NCBI GenBank assembly: GCA_025786725.1
Contig: JAHLTZ010000016.1
Location: 62,001 to 126,000 of the forward strand
Reading direction: 5' to 3'
From: Syncephalis fuscata
Taxonomy: Eukaryota; Zoopagomycota; Zoopagomycetes; Zoopagales; Piptocephalidaceae
Length of the DNA: 64,000 bases
In this document: positions 19,625 through 62,938 of the stretch, in pieces
Numbering within the stretch: the stretch's first letter is position 1
How the letters are laid out: every line of letters starts with the position of its first letter
The notes under the pieces: model-generated
Database searches by the model: none
What the model was told of the DNA's origin: nothing
Seen by the model: the letters and a program-made list of their open reading frames with translations, nothing else
Position numbers and translations under genes: made by a program

Positions 19625-19711
19625 GCACTGATGATATTCACTGGTGTGGATAGCGGGCTTCAAACCCGTTGGCGATTTGTTTCGCAGCGGTTCGATTCCG
19701 CCTTCGGTGCG
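19625..19711 (+). tRNA. selenocysteine tRNA, tRNA-Sec(TCA)
   Basis: 87-nt gene with the eukaryotic tRNA-Sec fold, distinct from ordinary tRNAs. Acceptor stem of 9 bp (GCACTGATG with CTTCGGTGC, one T-T mismatch and one T-G), T stem of 4 bp (GCGG/CCGC), D stem of 6 bp (TATTCA/TGGATA), anticodon stem GCGGG/CCCGT around loop CTTCAAA (anticodon TCA, reading UGA), and a long variable arm GGCGA..TTCGC. Discriminator G. The pattern GATGAT..TCA.TGGT.TGG..GCGGGCTTCAAACCC runs position by position along the known vertebrate gene, with compensating base changes. No CCA is encoded. This implies that the organism decodes UGA as selenocysteine. Confidence 0.95.
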
Positions 19712-31001: not shown

Positions 31002-33271
31002 TTAAGATGAAGTGAAAAGTAATTCGGTGTACTTGGGAATGGGCCAGATCTTATCGGATACGCGATGTTCAAGGAAATCGGCACTGGCACGGACCGCGGC
31101 CATCAATGGGAGAATGCGTTCACAAGCAGCGTGGCTTTGAGCAGCTGCCTCTTCAATCGCCGCCACCTCCTTCGATACTTCATCAAGCTCGGCCGTATCC
31201 TTTTGCAGCTTAGCGATGAATGGTGCCAATTCGTCAAGAATAACACGCTCTGGCATAAGTTCGCTACCAATAGTGGTAAGAGCGGCACAGGTTTCGGCCA
31301 ATGTCTTGCGGTATTCGAAGGCCGCTGGCAATACCATCGTGTTGATCATCGATAGCAAAGTACCTACTTCAATAAGCACGTCTTTGGCGTAGCGTTCGTG
31401 GAGAATGTGGTAACGTGAATGAAGTTCAGATTCGTTAAATACCTTCTGTTTAAGCAGCATATCACGATTGACATCAGCCAATAGCTGTTCAATGGCTACT
31501 GGTGCATTGCGAAGGTTTAGCAGGCCACGCTTTTCAGCCTCAACGACCCATGATTCGGAGTAGTTGTCGCCTTCGAAGCATACTGCTCGGCTGCTAGCAA
31601 TAAACTTCTTGATAACGGCCAATTTGTCAGCATCAGTTGGGTAGGGGCGGTCACCCATCTGTTCGCGCAACGCAGCAGATACTTCAGCAAGCGATGAAGC
31701 AACAGCTGTGTTAAGTAGCGTTACTGGGAAGGATGGCGACTGTTTGGAACCAACAGCACGGAATTCAAACTTATTGCCAGTAAAGGCGAACGGTGAAGTA
31801 CGATTACGATCGGTAAGATCACGGGCAATGTTAGGCAGTGTTGATACCTTCACATCGAGTACACGGCCACCAAGCTTGATGGTTTGAATCTCTGGACGTG
31901 AAAAGTTCTTTACTGGACGTGACTCTTCAATGCTGCGCAATACTTCGGTTAAATGCTCACCCAAAAAGGCAGAAATAATACCGGGTGGTGCTTCATTAGC
32001 ACCAAGACGGTGGTCATTGCTGGCCGATGAAATACCAGCACGCAATAGACCACCATGGACGTGGACGGCGTGAAGGATGGCCACCAAGAAGAGTAAGAAG
32101 CGGTAGTTGGTCTCTGGCTTCTCTGTTGGGTCGAGCAAGTTCTCGCCACGATCGGTAGACATGGACCAGTTACAATGCTTGCCACTGCCGTTAATACCGG
32201 CAAATGGCTTTTCGTGGAACAAAGCCTTTAGCTTGTGGCGATGGGCAACCTTGTGGATGGCATCCATCGTAAGCAAGTTGTGGTCGACGGCCAAAACAGC
32301 CTCTTCGAAGATGGGTGCAACTTCAAACTGAGCTGGGGCCACTTCATTGTGGCGTGTCTTGAGTGGTACACCAAGCTTGTAAAGCTCAAGTTCAACCTCA
32401 CTGATGGCCGATAGCACACGCGATGGAATCTTACCAAAGTAATGGTCTTCAAGCTGTTGATGACGTGGCGGCAAGTTGCCAATCAATGAACGGCCACAGA
32501 TCTTTAGATCAGGTCGAAGTGCATACAATGCACGATCTACCAAAAAAATTCCTGCTCAGTACCTAGTGTAGTAAACACTTGGTTTACAATGCATGGGTGG
32601 CCGGGTGGAGCTGGGTCCAAAAGGTTCAATAGAGTGCATGCATTACGCGATAGAGCTTCACTGGAACGTAATAGCACAGTCTTCTCGTCAAGTGCGTCAC
32701 CGTTGTAGGAAATGAACACAGATGGAATGTAAAGCACAGCAGTACCGTTGACTTGCGGCTGAATGAACATTGGGCTGGTCGTGTCCCAAATGGTGTAACC
32801 ACGCGCCTCAAAGGTAGTGCGCATACCGCCAGAAGGAAAGCTAGAAGCATCCGGCTCTGACTGCAGCAATTCTGAGCCGTGGAACGTATCAATAGCGTGT
32901 ACGCCTTCACCCAAGAATGACGTATTCTTCAATGCCAAAAAGGCATCGTGCTTTTCAGCAGTAGTATCGGTTTGCGGCTGGAACCAGTGAGAGAAGTGGG
33001 TAGCACCACGGTCCATGGCCCAAATACGAACGGCGTGGGCTACGGCATCGCTAGTGGCTTTGTCGAGTGTTTGACGCCCACGCATTTGTCTTAAAAATGA
33101 CGCAAATACCGATTTGGGCAGCGCGTTGGCCATATCCTTTAATGTAAATACATTACGGCCGTATAATTCCGATGGATAATATGGCTTGCCATCGGGGCGT
33201 TGTGGGAACGCGCGGATAGTATGGTCGCGCGATACCGAGGCAATAATGGCATTTTTACGTTGATCCGCCAT
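31002..33271 (-). CDS. type III glutamine synthetase (probable 1-nt sequence error)
   Basis: Glutamine synthetase of class III (GSIII/GlnN), joining ammonia to glutamate with ATP. Intronless, about 756 residues once joined, near the ~700-750 typical of GSIII and far longer than the ~360-residue GSII usual in fungi. Class-specific landmarks: TEQEFF.VD (metal-binding Glu), RHNEVAPAQFEVAPIFE, GINGSGKHCNWSMS, RLGANEAPPG and the RTSPFAFTGNKFEFRAVGSKQS segment. Two frames, 32537-33271 and 31002-32543, meet at a run of seven A (32542-32548); eight would give EFFLVDRALY in one frame. An under-called base is likely; -1 ribosomal slippage on T7 is a less likely alternative. Confidence 0.92.
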
Positions 33272-37100: not shown

Positions 37101-39330
37101 ACGGTTACGGACAAGCAATGCAATCTTGACATCAAGATCATTAAGAATCAATTCAGTTTGGTGATTTTCTCGAATCTTTTTCACAGCTTGTTGACGTAAA
37201 CGCTCCAATTCTACACCATAAATCATAAATAACGTGTTGTATGGAATATAATAGCCATTACTTACCAAGTTCATCTTCAAAGTCTTGTTCACTATCATCC
37301 AGTAAATGAACAAAGTTCTTCATGGTGTGGATAGGTGGATTTTCACCAAAAGCTATTATAGAATTAGTATTAAATAATATCTCGTAAACAGTCGAATGAC
37401 TTACTTAGATTTCGATAAGCCCGGTTGGCCAATTTAGCCCGGAACAGGCTTTGAATCTTTACAACCTTATCAACATGGCATATATAGTGTTCTTCTTGTT
37501 CTCGTTGTGCTTTGCGTACTAATGCACCACGCACCAAAGATTGTATCTGTTATGACAATTAGCTATATGTGCATGCATTGTCTATCTATATTTCACCACT
37601 GTCTACCTTAATTGCTGCCTCTTCTTCCTCTTCACGCTGCTGTCTCATTTTTTCAAGACGCTGACGTGCCAAAAGACCACGTGCCTGTGCTTGTACGCGC
37701 ACAACCAAATCATCATGTTGGTGCAAATCTTCTTTTCGAGCAGTCATTAATTTGCGTGCCTTCTGACCTCTAGTCAATGCTTGTAATTGAACAACCATAT
37801 TCTCTTGGCGACGCCATGCTGCTTTACGTGCCTCTTCTTGTTGACGCGCCTTCTGGCCTTTGGCCAATGCTTGTAGTTGAACAACCATATCTTCTTGACG
37901 ACGCCATGCTGCTTTACGTGCCTCTTCCTTTTGACGAGCCAAATAGCCACGTGCCAATGCTTGCAAGCGTTCAACATCAAACGATTGTTGCTTCAATGTC
38001 TCCAATTGACTCGTATGTTGTTGTCGTGCCAAATAACCACGTGCTAATGACTGTAGATTGACAAACTGCATTTCTTGTTGTTTTATCTCATTTTTGCGAT
38101 GCAATTCCTTTTGACGCGTTAAATATCCGCGAGATAGGGCTTGTAGGTTGATTAGGTCGCCCATACGACCCTTCCAATTCAATTCCCATTCTAATATATG
38201 TCAGTAGTCAATTGGTCAGATTAGTTACTATTTACCTTCTTCCTCAGATAATTCCGGCTCTGGTTCTGGTTCTTTTAATTCTCGCGACAATTGACTACCA
38301 ATATTACTGAATGCTGGCATAGCAATTTTAGACAATGCCAACTCTTTCTGCGTGGCCAATAGCTCAGCATCTATCAATCATTCAAATTGATATATTAGTC
38401 GACTATTATAGCCACGTATTAATCACTTACCCGTAAATTCAAGTTTACCAACTAAATTCTTAATATTAGGAGCACGATTTCTACGGGCTAATAAATGACT
38501 AATAAGTATATCCATAGTATTAATTATTTAATTATATTACTATTTAATTGTAGATTAATTACCTAAGAGCGTGTATACAATAAATAACCTTGGGGATGTT
38601 TTTTTTATCGTACAAGTCAGTCAATTCAAAAATAAACGACTAAAATAATATTAATACATTCATTAGTATACCAATTATAGTATATATCTATACATCATTA
38701 TTACCTCTGGCAATCCAATTTGTCTAATACCACGAAAAACATGATTTGCATTATCTGAATGACGAAATTGTAATTTAGCAGCCTATTAATGATCAGTTAT
38801 TAACGATTAGTCTTAATTATTACTCAATCACATATTTCTACATTTGTATTTACAAAACACTTTTTACTCACCTCAAAAATCTTTGGCACACAGTCTGGTT
38901 CAAAATGACGAATCAACTTGGCCAAAATCACACCATTTCGTAACTGTTCATCAAATGTGACAATGGGCGGCAATTCTTCATGAATACACGATTCAATCCA
39001 TCTATTAATCATATTGTAATTCGTATTTAACATACAACTAATTTATTCTATTTAATACTTACTCTTTGGCTTCACCAATATGACATAAATACTCATATGC
39101 TTGAAGACTTTTGCGTTCAAAGTCCATCCATGCACTTGGTCGGAGTAGTTGTGACTCACGTCGTCCACGATAGTCATGCTTTTGTAGCTTGATTCTACCA
39201 TGCATGCCTGTACAGTCCCGTATCAGTAAACCCGTTCACGCTACAACCACAAAGGCCATTTTTACTTACCAGTTACATCCTCGGCATCTTCAATAGTAAA
39301 GTTAAGGTCTTTGGGCAATTCAGGCTTCAT
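34150..39330 (-). CDS. IQG1: IQGAP-family scaffold (Iqg1/Rng2-like), probable 1-nt sequence error
   Basis: IQGAP scaffold of cytokinesis and cortical actin, about 23 exons. Order: calponin-homology domain (about residues 40-165, GMHGRIKLQKHDYRGRRESQ onward, including NGVILAKLIRHFEPD); an array of IQ-like motifs (37.6-38.2 kb, units such as LQALARGYLARQ) expected to bind calmodulin or myosin light chain; a GAP-related domain (about 35.5-36.8 kb); and the RasGAP_C region ending LLVFLINKKFYS. The last 13-nt exon (34150-34162) supplies FYS-stop, matching the FLLNKKFYGK ending of known IQGAPs. First exons: 39270-39330, 39063-39207, 38872-39001, 38705-38782. Near 36850-36855 one base is missing (VLSL..GFAQNQREE needs it). 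The start is the ATG at 39330, the only one opening the conserved CH region. Confidence 0.93.
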
Positions 39331-58350: not shown

Positions 58351-60743
58351 TCAATGTCTTGAAACTACTGGTTATTCTGTGTTTATAATATAGGCAACCA
58401 TGCCATATAATTAGCATATAGATCATAATGGTTAATGCGACTTACCATCTATAATATAAATCATTAAGTATCCAATGGATAATGCATGTTTAGTGTTTAG
58501 TTAATTGGTATTCAATTCTACTTACCAACTGCTGGTAAAGGTTATTAGATACGGGGTATATTATATATGTTTAGTACATAAATGCTTATATGTAATCATA
58601 CTTACTCTCTATTAATGCAAGTGGTTAAGCACACAGTGCATGGTATATATTTAGCATATATTTAGACAGTGTATAATGCCACTTACTCTCTATTAGTACA
58701 AGTGATTAAATACAGCATATGACATATTTTTAGTGAATAGCTAATTAATATACAATAATATTTACCAACTATCAATATAGGTGATTTAACACACAGTGTA
58801 TGGCATATGCTTAGTTCATGGTTGATCAGTATATAATGCTACTTACTAACTAATGATTCAAGTTATTAAACACATGGTGTGTGGGATATAATTAGCGCTT
58901 GGTTGGTTAACATGAAATCCCACTTACACTCTATTAACACAGGTTATTAAAAATGCAGTGTACGACATATATTTAGTATATTGCTGATTAGTATACAATT
59001 TTACTTACCGTCTAATAATGAAAGTTGTTAAATAAAGGGTATATGGCATATATTTAATTTGTAGCTAATTAATATATAATATTACTTACCAACTAATCGT
59101 ATACATTATTAAGCATAAGAAAAAGAATATGTAATTAGTTTAGTGCATAGATGGTTAGTATACAATGCCACTTACATTCTATTAGCACAAGTTGTTAGAC
59201 ATAAGGTGCATGGTATATGTTTAGTGCATAGCTGGTTGATATAAAAGTTTACTTACGTTCTATTAACAAAGGTTGTTAAACATAAGATGCATGGAATAAG
59301 TTTAGCACATAGTAAAGCAATATATTGTTTCACTTACCAGCTATCAACGCAAATTATTAAACAGGCGGCGCATAGAAAACGCTTAGTGTATGATTAATTA
59401 ATATACAATACCACTTACTAACTAATGGTTCAAGTTGTTAAGCACACGGTATATGGCATATGTTTAATACATATCCAATTGATATATAATATTACTTACG
59501 ATCTATTAAAGCAATTTATTAAACACACAGTGTATGGGATATATTTAGTACATAGTTGGTTGATATACAATGTCACTTACCAGCTAATGATGCAATTTAT
59601 TAAATATTCAGTGTATAAATATATTTAGTATGTAGCTAATCAATATACGATGTTACTTACCAACTATTAGCACAAGTAATTAGACATAAGGGAAATGGTA
59701 TATGTTTAGTACATAGTTGCTTGGTATGAAATGTCACTTACGCTCTATTAACACATTAAACACAAAGCAAAGGCACATGTTTAGCGTATAGCTTATTAGC
59801 ATACAATGGCACTTACTGGCTATTAACAAAAGTTATTAAACATACCGTGTACAACATATTTTTAGCGCATAATGAAGTGATATGTAGCACCACTTACCAG
59901 CTATTAGCACAGATTATAAAACACAAGATGCATGGAAATAGTTAGTGCATATTTGATTGATATATAATATTGCTTACCAACTAATAGTTGGAGTTATTAT
60001 ATAAAAATGCACGGCATACGTTTAGTATATAGTTGGTCAGTATACAATGCCACTTACTAGCTATTAACAAGTTATTAAATACACGTGTGCATCATACTTT
60101 TAGTGCACAGCAAAGTAATATGTAATACCACTTACCCCCTATTTATACAAATGATTAAATACACGCGCATGAAAAATGTTTAATGTATATCCGAGTAATA
60201 TGTGATGCCACTTACTAACTAATGATTCAAGTTATTAGACACAAAATGCACAGTATGTTTTAATGCATATCTGATTAATAGACAATATCACCTACGCTCT
60301 ATCGACATAAGTTGTTAAATACACAGCGCATGACATATATTTAGCATATATTTAGCTAATTTGCAATGCCACTCACGTTCTGTCACTACAAGTTATTAAG
60401 CAAGGTGCATGAAAGACGATTAGTGCATAGTCGATTAATATACGATGCCACTTACCAACTAATGGTTTAAGTTATTAAAAATATATTGCATGACAGGTGT
60501 TTAATACGTAGTTGGTCAATATACAATGCCACTTACGGTCTATTAATGTAAATACAGCATATTAGTATTTCTGATTAATAATTGGTTTGTTCTTTTATAT
60601 TAAGTTTACCTTGAGATGTTAGATCTAATTTCAGCAATTTACATTACAAAACAATGTTTATCATGTTCATCATGTGTATGGCAATCTACATTGAGCATTG
60701 GAACAATGGTTCAAAATCACAACTTACCGACTAGTATCGCCAT
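58351..60743 (-). CDS. micro-exon gene: 30 exons, 27 of them exactly 3 nt, encoding a 41-residue coiled coil
   Basis: Minus-strand model: exon 1 60728-60743 (ATG, 16 nt); exon 2 60610-60624 (15 nt); then 3-nt exons starting at 60537, 60456, 60377, 60296, 60216, 60136, 60058, 59978, 59898, 59817, 59742, 59661, 59581, 59500, 59419, 59338, 59257, 59176, 59090, 59009, 58928, 58847, 58766, 58687, 58606, 58526, 58446; last exon 58351-58364 ending TGA. All 29 introns are GT-AG and phase 1; 27 are 70-90 nt. The protein opens MAILVDLTSQ, contains EQFDEFIEKID and has heptad core residues L15, I18, L22, L25, F29, F32, I36 with 3-4 spacing. In the ATG frame a stop lies two codons upstream with no acceptor between. 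No homologue recognised; unproven without RNA data. Confidence 0.72.
58365..60609 (-). repeat. tandem array of ~28 related introns (~80-bp units)
   Basis: Read on the minus strand, each unit starts GTAAGTGGCATTGTATA, runs through a TACTAAACATATGCCATG-like middle and ends TTAATAACTTGTGTTAATAG, followed by a variable triplet. Spacing is 74-86 bp. Splice signals and the middle block are conserved; the three bases between TAG and GT are the most variable positions. Units differ by roughly 20-40 percent by eye, so the array is old or fast-evolving rather than a fresh satellite. Confidence 0.9.
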
Positions 60744-62938
60744 TAGTTAGCCATAATGTTAATGAGTATATTAATTTACGTATTTATTGCAGTTGTAACA
60801 TACCACGGATAAGGGCCGGCACAGTTTCCATTATAATTGTATTGATTACAAAAGCTATAATGAGCGGCGCAAACGACGGCTATAGAAAGCTTTGTGTTGA
60901 TACGACTTGTTAAAACAAGCAAACAAATGAAAAATAGAACGTGGCGATGATACCGCTGGTTATTTGTGTGTATCGAGCGGGCTATTTAAATCTGTGGTTA
61001 TACTGGGATATCAGTATATTGTAGTGTGCGGAATGTATTATCAATACTCAATGTAACCAATAAAGCACAGACAGTTGGTGGATTAAAGCACGTGCATATC
61101 GATAAATCAATGGCGCGATAATGTACTGCCAAGCCCTTATATCGTTTTTTTCTTTTACGCAAATGACGCGGCCCTATTAGCATCCAGTACGCATGTGGTA
61201 GGAATCCACCCATTGAGTTTTACAATTTTGTTACACAATTCGACTATGAAACGCAAACTGAATATATCAATTCCACGGAAAAAGGGATAATGTACCGCTG
61301 TGCCTTTGTTGCGTTTTCACCGATAAAATCAGTCTTCATTGTCTGCACGTATTTCGACTGTGCTTAGCATCGATGCAACAGTAGCGATAGTGCATTAAAC
61401 TGGTATTTTTTTTACAAATATGCACTGCTGTGTGTAAAGTAGTCATAGGCCATTAAATGGATGAACCAATCAGTATTTTTCATGATTTAATACATATTGA
61501 TATTGGGTTGGCTATAGGAACAAACAGTTCGTTTTAGCACTGTACCACCAGCTGTCGATACCAGCTCTATTTTTAACAATTAATTGATGGCTTCTGTATA
61601 ACACAGTTTTAATAGTAAAGTATTAAATTTATGTATGGATGCATCAATTGTTTTAACACAGTGTAAAAATACTAGACTGACCTGTCGGGTCGTCTCAGTT
61701 GTATATAATCAATCAAGAGTGTACAGGAGCAATGCAGGTTATATCAAGTTTTTTTTGAAAGCTAGAAAGCAGTCTTTATTAAGGCAAACAATAACATAAA
61801 GGTAAGACTTGTTTTAACTTGCTGCAGCCTCGACAATTCAACGAGGTGGTCGATTTTAAGCATGGGTATGAACGGAGACTGCGTTGTAAGGTAGGATGTA
61901 GCAATGAGTTACACCAATAAGCGTTTGCCGCCTAAAGATTGGTCCGGTAGACATCGGGTTCAGAGCCTCATTGACTTAGAAGGCAAGACTAGTAGTTGAG
62001 CTAGCATTACACCCTTTTGATGTCATAGCATTTTTTTTTCAAAAACCAGTGTTAATTAAGGGCATATCAGACAATGGCAGTCCCATTGTATAATGACTGA
62101 TTTGGGAATAACTCGATGAAGGTGGTTTATAATAGCTGCACACATCAAGATTGCACTAGACGAACGTGGAATCAGAATTTAGCAATGGTAAATCTCATCT
62201 ATATTCTTATCAGTATGCAAATCAATGACAACATACTATCATAGCCTTGAATGTTGAAATTCTTTATTAGAGCTTTTATTTCTTGGATTCTATGTTGTTA
62301 TAATTGCGTGCAAACTACTACACAGGCGGCACGCAAGCAATACAAATATGCACACGCAATCATCTTTTTTAGCAAAGCATTGATTTGCACGCTGCACTAT
62401 TTTATTGATATTAACAGTTTTGTGGCGCTGGCTTATTTGTGGTAATTATATCGATTGTAAACAGCAGAATCATGCATACTGCACATCCGTTCTGATTAGT
62501 ACTTGCTAAAACGACATTTTTGTCGCAGAAAACATGTTGCTATCGAAATAGATAGGTGTTGTGTTATTTTAACAAGCCTACCGATCATATAGATTTGCCA
62601 TAATTGCTATTATTTGAGAAAAAATCATTTTAACCACCATCGCTCACCACACTATCGTAATTTGTACACTTTCAAATAGTGTGAAATCGAAATGTTATGA
62701 CAAGTATAAATATCTATGCTATTGTCAAATCAGTCCGGACTGGACTGGAGGTTGTTTGAACAGCATAGATCAACTGTAATTATATTACAAATGCAAATTT
62801 GTTATAAAATCAAATATTCACAATACATAGCATGAAAGACAAGCGCTCATAATTGCTTTTTGGCGCCTTAAACTCATTCACTACTAATACGCTGCAATGA
62901 TTACGTAACATACTCTTAATTTATTGTTTACTCAATAG
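60744..62938. other. gene-poor region with a possible structured RNA
   Basis: No protein gene supported. GC content rises around 60.8-61.4 kb and 61.8-62.0 kb. The second patch may hold a Pol III transcript (see separate entry). Confidence 0.4.
61790..62039 (+). ncRNA. possible Pol III-type structured RNA
   Basis: A GC-richer island in AT-rich DNA ends in nine T (62031-62039), the usual Pol III stop. Upstream is GGTTCAGAGCC (about 61960), close to the B-box consensus GGTTCGANNCC, and a hairpin CCTCG..CGAGG near 61828-61846. I compared it by eye with SRP, RNase P, RNase MRP, U3 and U6 hallmarks and found no clear match. The 5' end is a guess. Low confidence. Confidence 0.22.

Follow-up and report, generated by a model that had tools for sequence, protein, structure and literature searches.

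A putative family of small, mostly secreted proteins in Syncephalis fuscata built from runs of 3-nt phase-1 exons

A gene on the minus strand of a 64,000-nt stretch of the Syncephalis fuscata genome (contig JAHLTZ010000016.1, forward-strand positions 62,001 to 126,000; hereafter the window, numbered from its first letter) very probably belongs to a large gene family of this fungus whose products are small proteins, secreted in most cases, and whose coding sequence is built from 3-nt phase-1 exons, with all introns being spliced out. In the gene plan that we propose, a conserved 5′ signal exon, usually ending in RR, would precede an array in which homologous introns of ~78 nt lie 3 coding nt apart; the spliceosome would take out every intron, and the mature peptide would be assembled one codon's worth of RNA per step. 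The fuller account, which we consider likely, is that of a secreted-peptide family with one exon per codon length, in which a repeat of ~81 bp is composed of 78 bp of intron and 3 bp of code, splicing ratchets through 20-40 introns per gene, and the peptides evolve unit by unit.

Structure of the window gene

The gene was first noticed as a run of 27 successive 3-nt exons, and this claim holds without exception: 27/27 triplets are flanked exactly by AG and GT with zero departures, from the first at 60539-60537 to the last at 58448-58446 on the minus strand. In the window, YAGNNNGTAAGT is found 24 times, always within the array gene; shuffled sequences contain it 1.36 times on average and at most 5 times, which rules out chance. 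The features of the gene and its upstream region are the following:

60964..61067, minus strand: upstream stretch with homology to the promoter region of the paralog L033, 70.8% over this interval (blastn)
60804..60895, minus strand: remnant of a signal-peptide exon 1, 92 nt, with ACA at the position of the start codon (blastn and tblastn to L033; alignment with L041 and L051)
60804..60831, minus strand: ATG 60831 as a possible surviving coding start, from which the frame stays open up to the donor of exon 1, phase 1 (ATG putatively used)
60731..60803, minus strand: intron 1 (GTATGT...TAG), 73 nt, containing ATG 60743 (homology with L033, L041 and L051)
60728..60730, minus strand: 3-nt exon TCG, the entire second exon (TCG also in L041)
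60610..60624, minus strand: 15-nt exon ATCTAACATCTCAAG (aligned 15-nt counterpart in L041)
58446..60539, minus strand: array of 27 consecutive 3-nt exons, all phase 1, with introns of ~78 nt and a triplet spacing near 81 nt
58372..58376, minus strand: terminal coding exon AATAA, in which AA finishes the last codon (GAA) and TAA is the stop (frame-blind parse; several paralogs have ends of a similar type, ACAG|NATAA)

The preliminary description had read these exons as one open frame encoding 41 residues. With its start at 60743 and its terminal exon at 58364, this product is reproduced, and the 27 triplets, the TCG exon and the 15-nt exon indeed read through without a stop. Homology to paralogs places both ends differently, since ATG 60743 falls inside intron 1, and the last acceptor that had been chosen is probably wrong, the terminal exon starting at 58376. 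Read from ATG 60831, the protein would be METVPALIRVDLTSQDLEQLRAIAAKLADLTEQFDEFIEKIDE, and ~95% of the sequence from this ATG to the stop is intron, as had been stated for the transcript. The 15-nt exon at 60624-60610, also proposed at the outset, is backed by its aligned L041 homologue. Our frame-blind splice parser passed over it (its donor, GTAAAC, is weak) and also misses the 15-nt exon of L041; therefore, the window product was scored against intron-free paralogs (see below) without these 15 nt.

Because the position of the start codon is ACA and the remnant of exon 1 is 92 nt long, the signal peptide of the window copy is broken, but the array is intact. The window copy would thus be either a gene recently inactivated at its 5′ end, or one encoding a non-secreted helix of 43 residues translated from ATG 60831.

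The product had been described as a coiled coil with hydrophobic residues at heptad spacing. Triplets beginning with T, which supply T as codon base 2 and so mark hydrophobic residues, bear this out: their power at period 3.5 was reached by only 2/20,000 shuffles of triplet order, with a best period of 3.45 for the 27 triplets; when TCG is put in front of the 27, the values are 28/20,000 shuffles and a best period of 3.50. In L041 a heptad signal holds for the first 20 triplets (equalled by 78/20,000 shuffles) but not over all 40 (1,449/20,000). The core claim, that of a gene made almost wholly of 3-nt phase-1 exons and specifying a heptad-patterned peptide, thus passes the tests run on the sequence. 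The locus had been taken as a single gene, which overlooked a genome-wide family with signal-peptide exons.

Three other features of the window deserve mention. A selenocysteine tRNA gene (19625-19711, plus strand; Rfam RF01852, 76.9 bits) is notable in a fungus. A type III glutamine synthetase gene (31002-33271, minus strand) has two frames joined across only ~23 nt, to be explained by an assembly error or else by a very short intron. A 90-bp tandem repeat of about 2 copies with 84-88% matches (37758-37963) lies within an open reading frame.

The family across the genome

The arrays can be written as the pattern GTAAGT-N(60-86)-TAGNNNGTAAG. In the S. fuscata genome (28.95 Mb), 2,987 matches to the consensus intron were followed by exactly 3 nt before a new donor, against 16 for a reversed-pattern control; a spacing of 4 nt gave 13 matches (control, 18), and one of 6 nt gave 83 (control, 17). 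For detailed analysis, 20 loci picked for their array matches were sampled together with the window, about 244 kb in all, several of these loci being recent duplicates of each other; five further short stretches (L053-L057) were also sampled. When 13 genes (counting two duplicate pairs) were parsed for splice sites without regard to frame, 386/404 internal exons proved to be 3 nt long, with runs of up to 40 such exons. Single exons of 2, 5 or 7 nt were parsed in L037, L040, L047 and L050; we attributed them to parsing mistakes or decay and left them out of the translations (one each from the products of L037, L047 and L040; two from that of L050). The parse halted before the end of the gene at L033, L035, L036, both L046 copies, L048, L049 and one L050 copy, and these badly parsed or early-ending genes may reflect weak sites, insertions or decay.

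A single array gene is present in two inverted copies, L033 and L034 (C1:472000-481900 and C1:528000-537900), which are set apart by whole units and an insertion. An insertion of ~400 nt lies in an array intron of L033 (L033:5510-5925), and similar stretches follow array units in L046 and L052. These stretches may represent a short mobile element; in the six loci scanned, ARAGORN detected no tRNA in them.

A signal-like exon (MKLSIAVVC...) was found 5′ of the array by tblastn with one signal exon in 19/21 array-bearing locus-strands, a count that includes L047, in which a spurious early chain starts the chain list, and that is otherwise 18/21; signal-peptide character was judged by eye. The plus-strand match in L046 covers residues 1-15 only, and L039 and the window gave no tblastn match to the signal exon 5′ of the array. 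Exon 1 is 94 or 97 nt long in 19/21 parsed paralog hits, corresponding to phase 1, and most copies end in the dibasic RR. Across the genome, 150 signal-exon hits were scored from 331 candidates, all with E <= 1.5e-7, and 81/150 have an open frame of 39-43 amino acids, the length expected when reading enters the first array intron.

A profile search recovered 15 annotated family proteins, 15/15 of them from S. fuscata and none from other species. None of the 15 resembles a spliced array product by eye. Two, P0127 and P0133, appear to read straight from the signal exon into the first array intron (KLYC...); therefore, the family looks misannotated in public records. Some signal exons run on into ordinary open frames without introns, namely in L053-L056 and in the annotated P0123, P0128 and P0132, and these intron-free paralogs may be retrocopies of spliced messages.

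Eleven products without an internal stop were obtained from non-duplicate genes, giving 12 with that of the window gene. Five or six cysteines are present in 7/12 of these readable products, and coiled-coil-like products come from the window gene and from L040/L041. As an example, the predicted product of L051 after RR is DGKFVINKEKCTAYYEKYCVFCKPEDKKSYIDDCIARCNQNRCPK; L034 and L044 provide further examples. The start CxxCxxxC is common to L055, L054, P0123 and P0128 and to the array products of L034, L042 and L047. When the 12 array products were aligned to eight intron-free paralogs and compared with 1,000 order shuffles each, the products of L034 and L042 aligned better than all 1,000 shuffles, and p was 0.002 for L052, 0.006 for L051 and 0.038 for L047. 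Thus 5/12 were individually below 0.05, and the Fisher combination over all 12 gave p 1.4e-6. The remaining 7/12 were not below 0.05, including the window product (0.70) and that of L040 (0.97), neither of which is cysteine-rich. An intron-free homologue of the kind that the preliminary description suggested looking for was therefore found, in the same genome, for other members of the family, and not for the coiled-coil product of the window gene. An HMM built from the intron-free paralogs placed 3/13 products at a level reached by 6/400 shuffles or fewer. The base composition of the arrays at codon positions 2 and 3 is like that of the continuous paralogs, and position 1 is richer in T.

Comparisons with known proteins gave little. 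A search with the L051 product returned no match; Pfam returned three weak matches (best E 0.0027) and PDB one at E 0.2, none of them usable. An AlphaFold model of P0128 is helical and poor (pLDDT 63.5, pTM 0.41). Alpha-hairpinin-like motifs consist of CxxxC...CxxxC on a helical hairpin, and a motif of two CxxxC is visible in L055, P0128 and L034.

The introns between chained triplets have a median length of 78 nt (5-95%, 72-80). Their consensus is GTAAGT...TAATAG with a CTAA motif in mid-intron, of which the search itself had fixed AG, GT and some of the donor, and they have the GT...AG ends with donor and acceptor consensus of U2-type introns. Similarity spans their whole length, with a consensus of 80 columns; identity is 0.66-0.83 within one array and 0.687 on average between loci. 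Neighbouring introns are more alike than under permuted order in 10/17 arrays at p<0.05, from which we conclude that arrays grow by tandem duplication. The window array has no trace of tandem duplication (p 0.64), as if it were old. A fresh block duplication is seen in the array of L043, where a pair of introns three units apart has identical sequence and the triplets GGA CTG are repeated. An intron profile gave 539 hits in the 20 loci and the window, 12 of which lie outside the computed array spans, all in L033, L039, L049 and L052, which bear arrays. Free-moving introners, which would place homologous introns at many sites of unrelated genes, were also considered and are not favored by the ~244-kb sample, in which hits to the profile are confined to array-bearing loci.

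Phase-1 coding and alternative readings

The reading frame was examined in 23 sampled arrays of at least 5 units, with 321 triplets, after L034, L036, L038 and L041 had been left out as duplicates. Within the unit, it is the triplet that lacks conservation, with 0.10, 0.10 and 0.02 bits at its three positions compared with at least 0.40 bits at 39/40 of the flanking positions shown, among which the adjoining AG and GT were demanded by the array search. Of the 64 possible triplets, 57 are used. In phase 1, stop codons occur at 0/298 junctions, whereas 2,000 shuffles of order within arrays gave a mean of 16.4 and a minimum of 7. A phase-2 reading was dropped, as its stop count is at chance level (30 against 26.9 in shuffles), and the scarcity of phase-0 stop triplets in the sampled arrays (1 against 6.6 expected) is tentatively attributed to the rarity of T as the first triplet base.

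Genome-wide counts covering TAA and TGA agree with the sampled arrays. Among 2,575 consecutive triplet pairs, 726 have T as the third base of the first triplet, and T|AA or T|GA occurs in 5/726; after A, C or G, 351/1,849 second triplets start with AA or GA, from which ~138 would be expected after T. These counts include duplicated genes and are therefore not independent events. As a raw count, phase-2 stops of the form TA|A or TG|A number 175. The preliminary description had named frame-breaking triplets in relatives as evidence that would speak against the gene; paralogs of the same genome, on which we examined this, gave the opposite result in both sets of counts.

The composition of the phase-1 translation is also non-random. 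Cysteine occurs 40 times against 23.4 +/- 3.4 expected, phenylalanine is likewise in excess, and serine is short. The motif CxxCxxxC, which was picked after viewing the products, is present in 3/11 of them against a shuffle mean of 0.105, and 1/5,000 shuffles had as many. Recent duplicates have diverged with no clear sign that the triplets are under additional constraint (1/57 v 91/2178; 0/27 v 5/1425; 3/114 v 72/3510; 0/96 v 5/3856), with few triplet changes to count.

The same junctions bear on whether the symmetric exons are skipped at will to yield many peptide variants per gene. Skipping would be frame-neutral for the 3-nt exons that make up 386/404 of those parsed, and the micro-exon genes (MEGs) of schistosomes are described as making many isoforms through the splicing of central exons (PMC10526429). 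However, junctions that would be formed by skipping carry stops at roughly the shuffled rate of about 5.5%: 10/275 for i,i+2 and 20/252 for i,i+3, followed by 7/229, 10/206, 11/187 and 6/170 for i,i+4 to i,i+7, against 0/298 for consecutive triplets. Since skip junctions are unprotected from stops and consecutive ones are protected, selection appears to see the full constitutive order, and we regard the combinatorial reading as improbable. It is similarly doubtful, and in our judgment quite improbable, that the arrays are relics of a past coding constraint in genes that are now mostly dead and untranscribed. Signs of decay do exist, as the signal exon of the window copy is broken, the L033 array carries the foreign insertion of ~400 nt, the exon 1 donor of L042 is altered, L049 retains only 3 matching triplets, and annotation passes over the arrays. 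Decay would nevertheless yield both TAA/TGA junctions, which are near absent over the 2,575 pairs, and 4-nt exons, which are at control level (13 vs 18).

Readings in which the triplets carry no message, or only a secondary one, fit less well. If a satellite or introner had spread with no coding role, the 3-nt spacers would be gaps between repeat copies with splice-like ends; the likeness of introns across loci (mean identity 0.687), as in introner families, and the tandem duplication in the arrays could be so explained. Spacers of this kind should not be free of stops in a single frame only, enriched in cysteine, heptad-periodic or alignable to intron-free paralogs, and the 12 of the 539 profile hits outside array spans are all in array-bearing loci. 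The order-shuffle tests already speak against this reading, which is highly improbable. We assign an equally slight chance to the idea that an intron product, such as small RNAs, is the real output and the peptide secondary. The introns are conserved over their full length, with a consensus of 80 columns, as that idea would have it, but duplication accounts for their similarity and the reading-frame signal sits in the triplets.

Proposed splicing model and comparison with known systems

Taken together, we favor constitutive removal of every intron from the transcripts of a secreted-peptide family. An acceptor and a donor that are 3 nt apart can hardly be bound together; therefore, the introns are probably removed sequentially. 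Splicing would proceed by intron definition, with introns removed one by one and each step exposing the next donor; by the logic of recursive splicing, this would constitute a ratchet in which an intron is taken out, 3 nt are kept and the next donor is exposed. The RR at the end of the signal exon would be cleaved by a kexin-type protease, as its sequence suggests. Arrays would lengthen or shorten as whole units, each an intron plus a codon, are duplicated or lost, which would never disturb the frame. Syncephalis has a mycoparasitic life style, and the peptides may act on the fungi that it parasitises.

If this model is true, these genes would represent a new extreme of exon size and number, with roughly three thousand exons of 3 nt, most of them in runs, in a genome of 29 Mb. 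Exonic signals can hardly guide splicing at 3 nt, where the neighbouring acceptor and donor nearly touch, and stepwise (recursive) splicing by intron definition would become directly testable in one natural transcript. Current gene finding also seems to overlook a family of secreted proteins, whose peptides could gain or lose single residues while staying in frame.

Schistosoma mansoni has 35 MEGs with 10-20 short exons each, the exons being described in the account in PMC10526429 as 6-81 bp long (3-81 in its abstract) and the majority 15 bp, with introns of 0.1-5 kb. As described there, MEGs resemble the S. fuscata genes in that their products are secreted, their numerous very short exons have lengths that are mostly multiples of three, the family is dispersed over chromosomes, and automatic annotation handles them poorly (PMC10526429). 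Exons divisible by three are found in both, and a signal-like exon, judged by eye, is present in the S. fuscata family and not intact in the window copy. Compared by gene structure with that account, S. fuscata differs in that its exons are 3 nt long (386/404) in runs of up to 40, and in that its introns are uniform (median 78 nt) and mutually similar; its arrays have neither introns of 0.1-5 kb nor mostly 15-bp exons.

The bicycle genes of aphids, which are putative effectors, are described as having many unusually small internal exons, nearly all of one phase, that begin at codon position 2, termed 'exon phase 2' there (PMC9168663). The S. fuscata genes likewise have many small internal exons of one phase that start at codon position 2, the introns falling after base 1. 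According to the same source, bicycle genes further diverge fast and are recognised by their gene structure (PMC9168663). By contrast, S. fuscata has exons of single-codon length between tandemly repeated, similar introns. The exons of bicycle genes, ~17 per gene on average, are longer than one codon. Introners, or introner-like elements, are another case in which many introns of one genome belong to one sequence family; unlike these, the sampled S. fuscata copies sit in array-bearing loci, in arrays with tandem duplication.

At the level of the single exon, extreme brevity has precedents. Cases with single-nucleotide and 3-nt exons, Arabidopsis APC11 (PMC4674806) and Fusarium CYP621A (PMC12940212), indicate that even a 1-nt exon can be spliced constitutively, and the latter study used an intronless relative as a length marker, much as the intron-free paralogs serve in S. 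fuscata. As reported, these tiny exons are isolated in otherwise ordinary genes, whereas in S. fuscata there are dozens in a row. The zero-length exons of recursive splicing also place an acceptor directly before a new donor and are used stepwise, but 0 nt are retained in the description given in PMC5126111, whereas S. fuscata would retain 3 coding nt at each step.

Our literature search found no report of genes of this kind, and what the papers it found say of S. fuscata, including a report of a virus from this species (PMC7482067), does not deal with gene structure; nearest are the schistosome MEGs and the aphid bicycle genes, both with longer, unequal exons. On a stricter view, the S. fuscata arrays could be an extreme variant of micro-exon genes. 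We count their architecture as a new category, because each repeat in itself consists of one intron and a piece of coding sequence as long as a codon.
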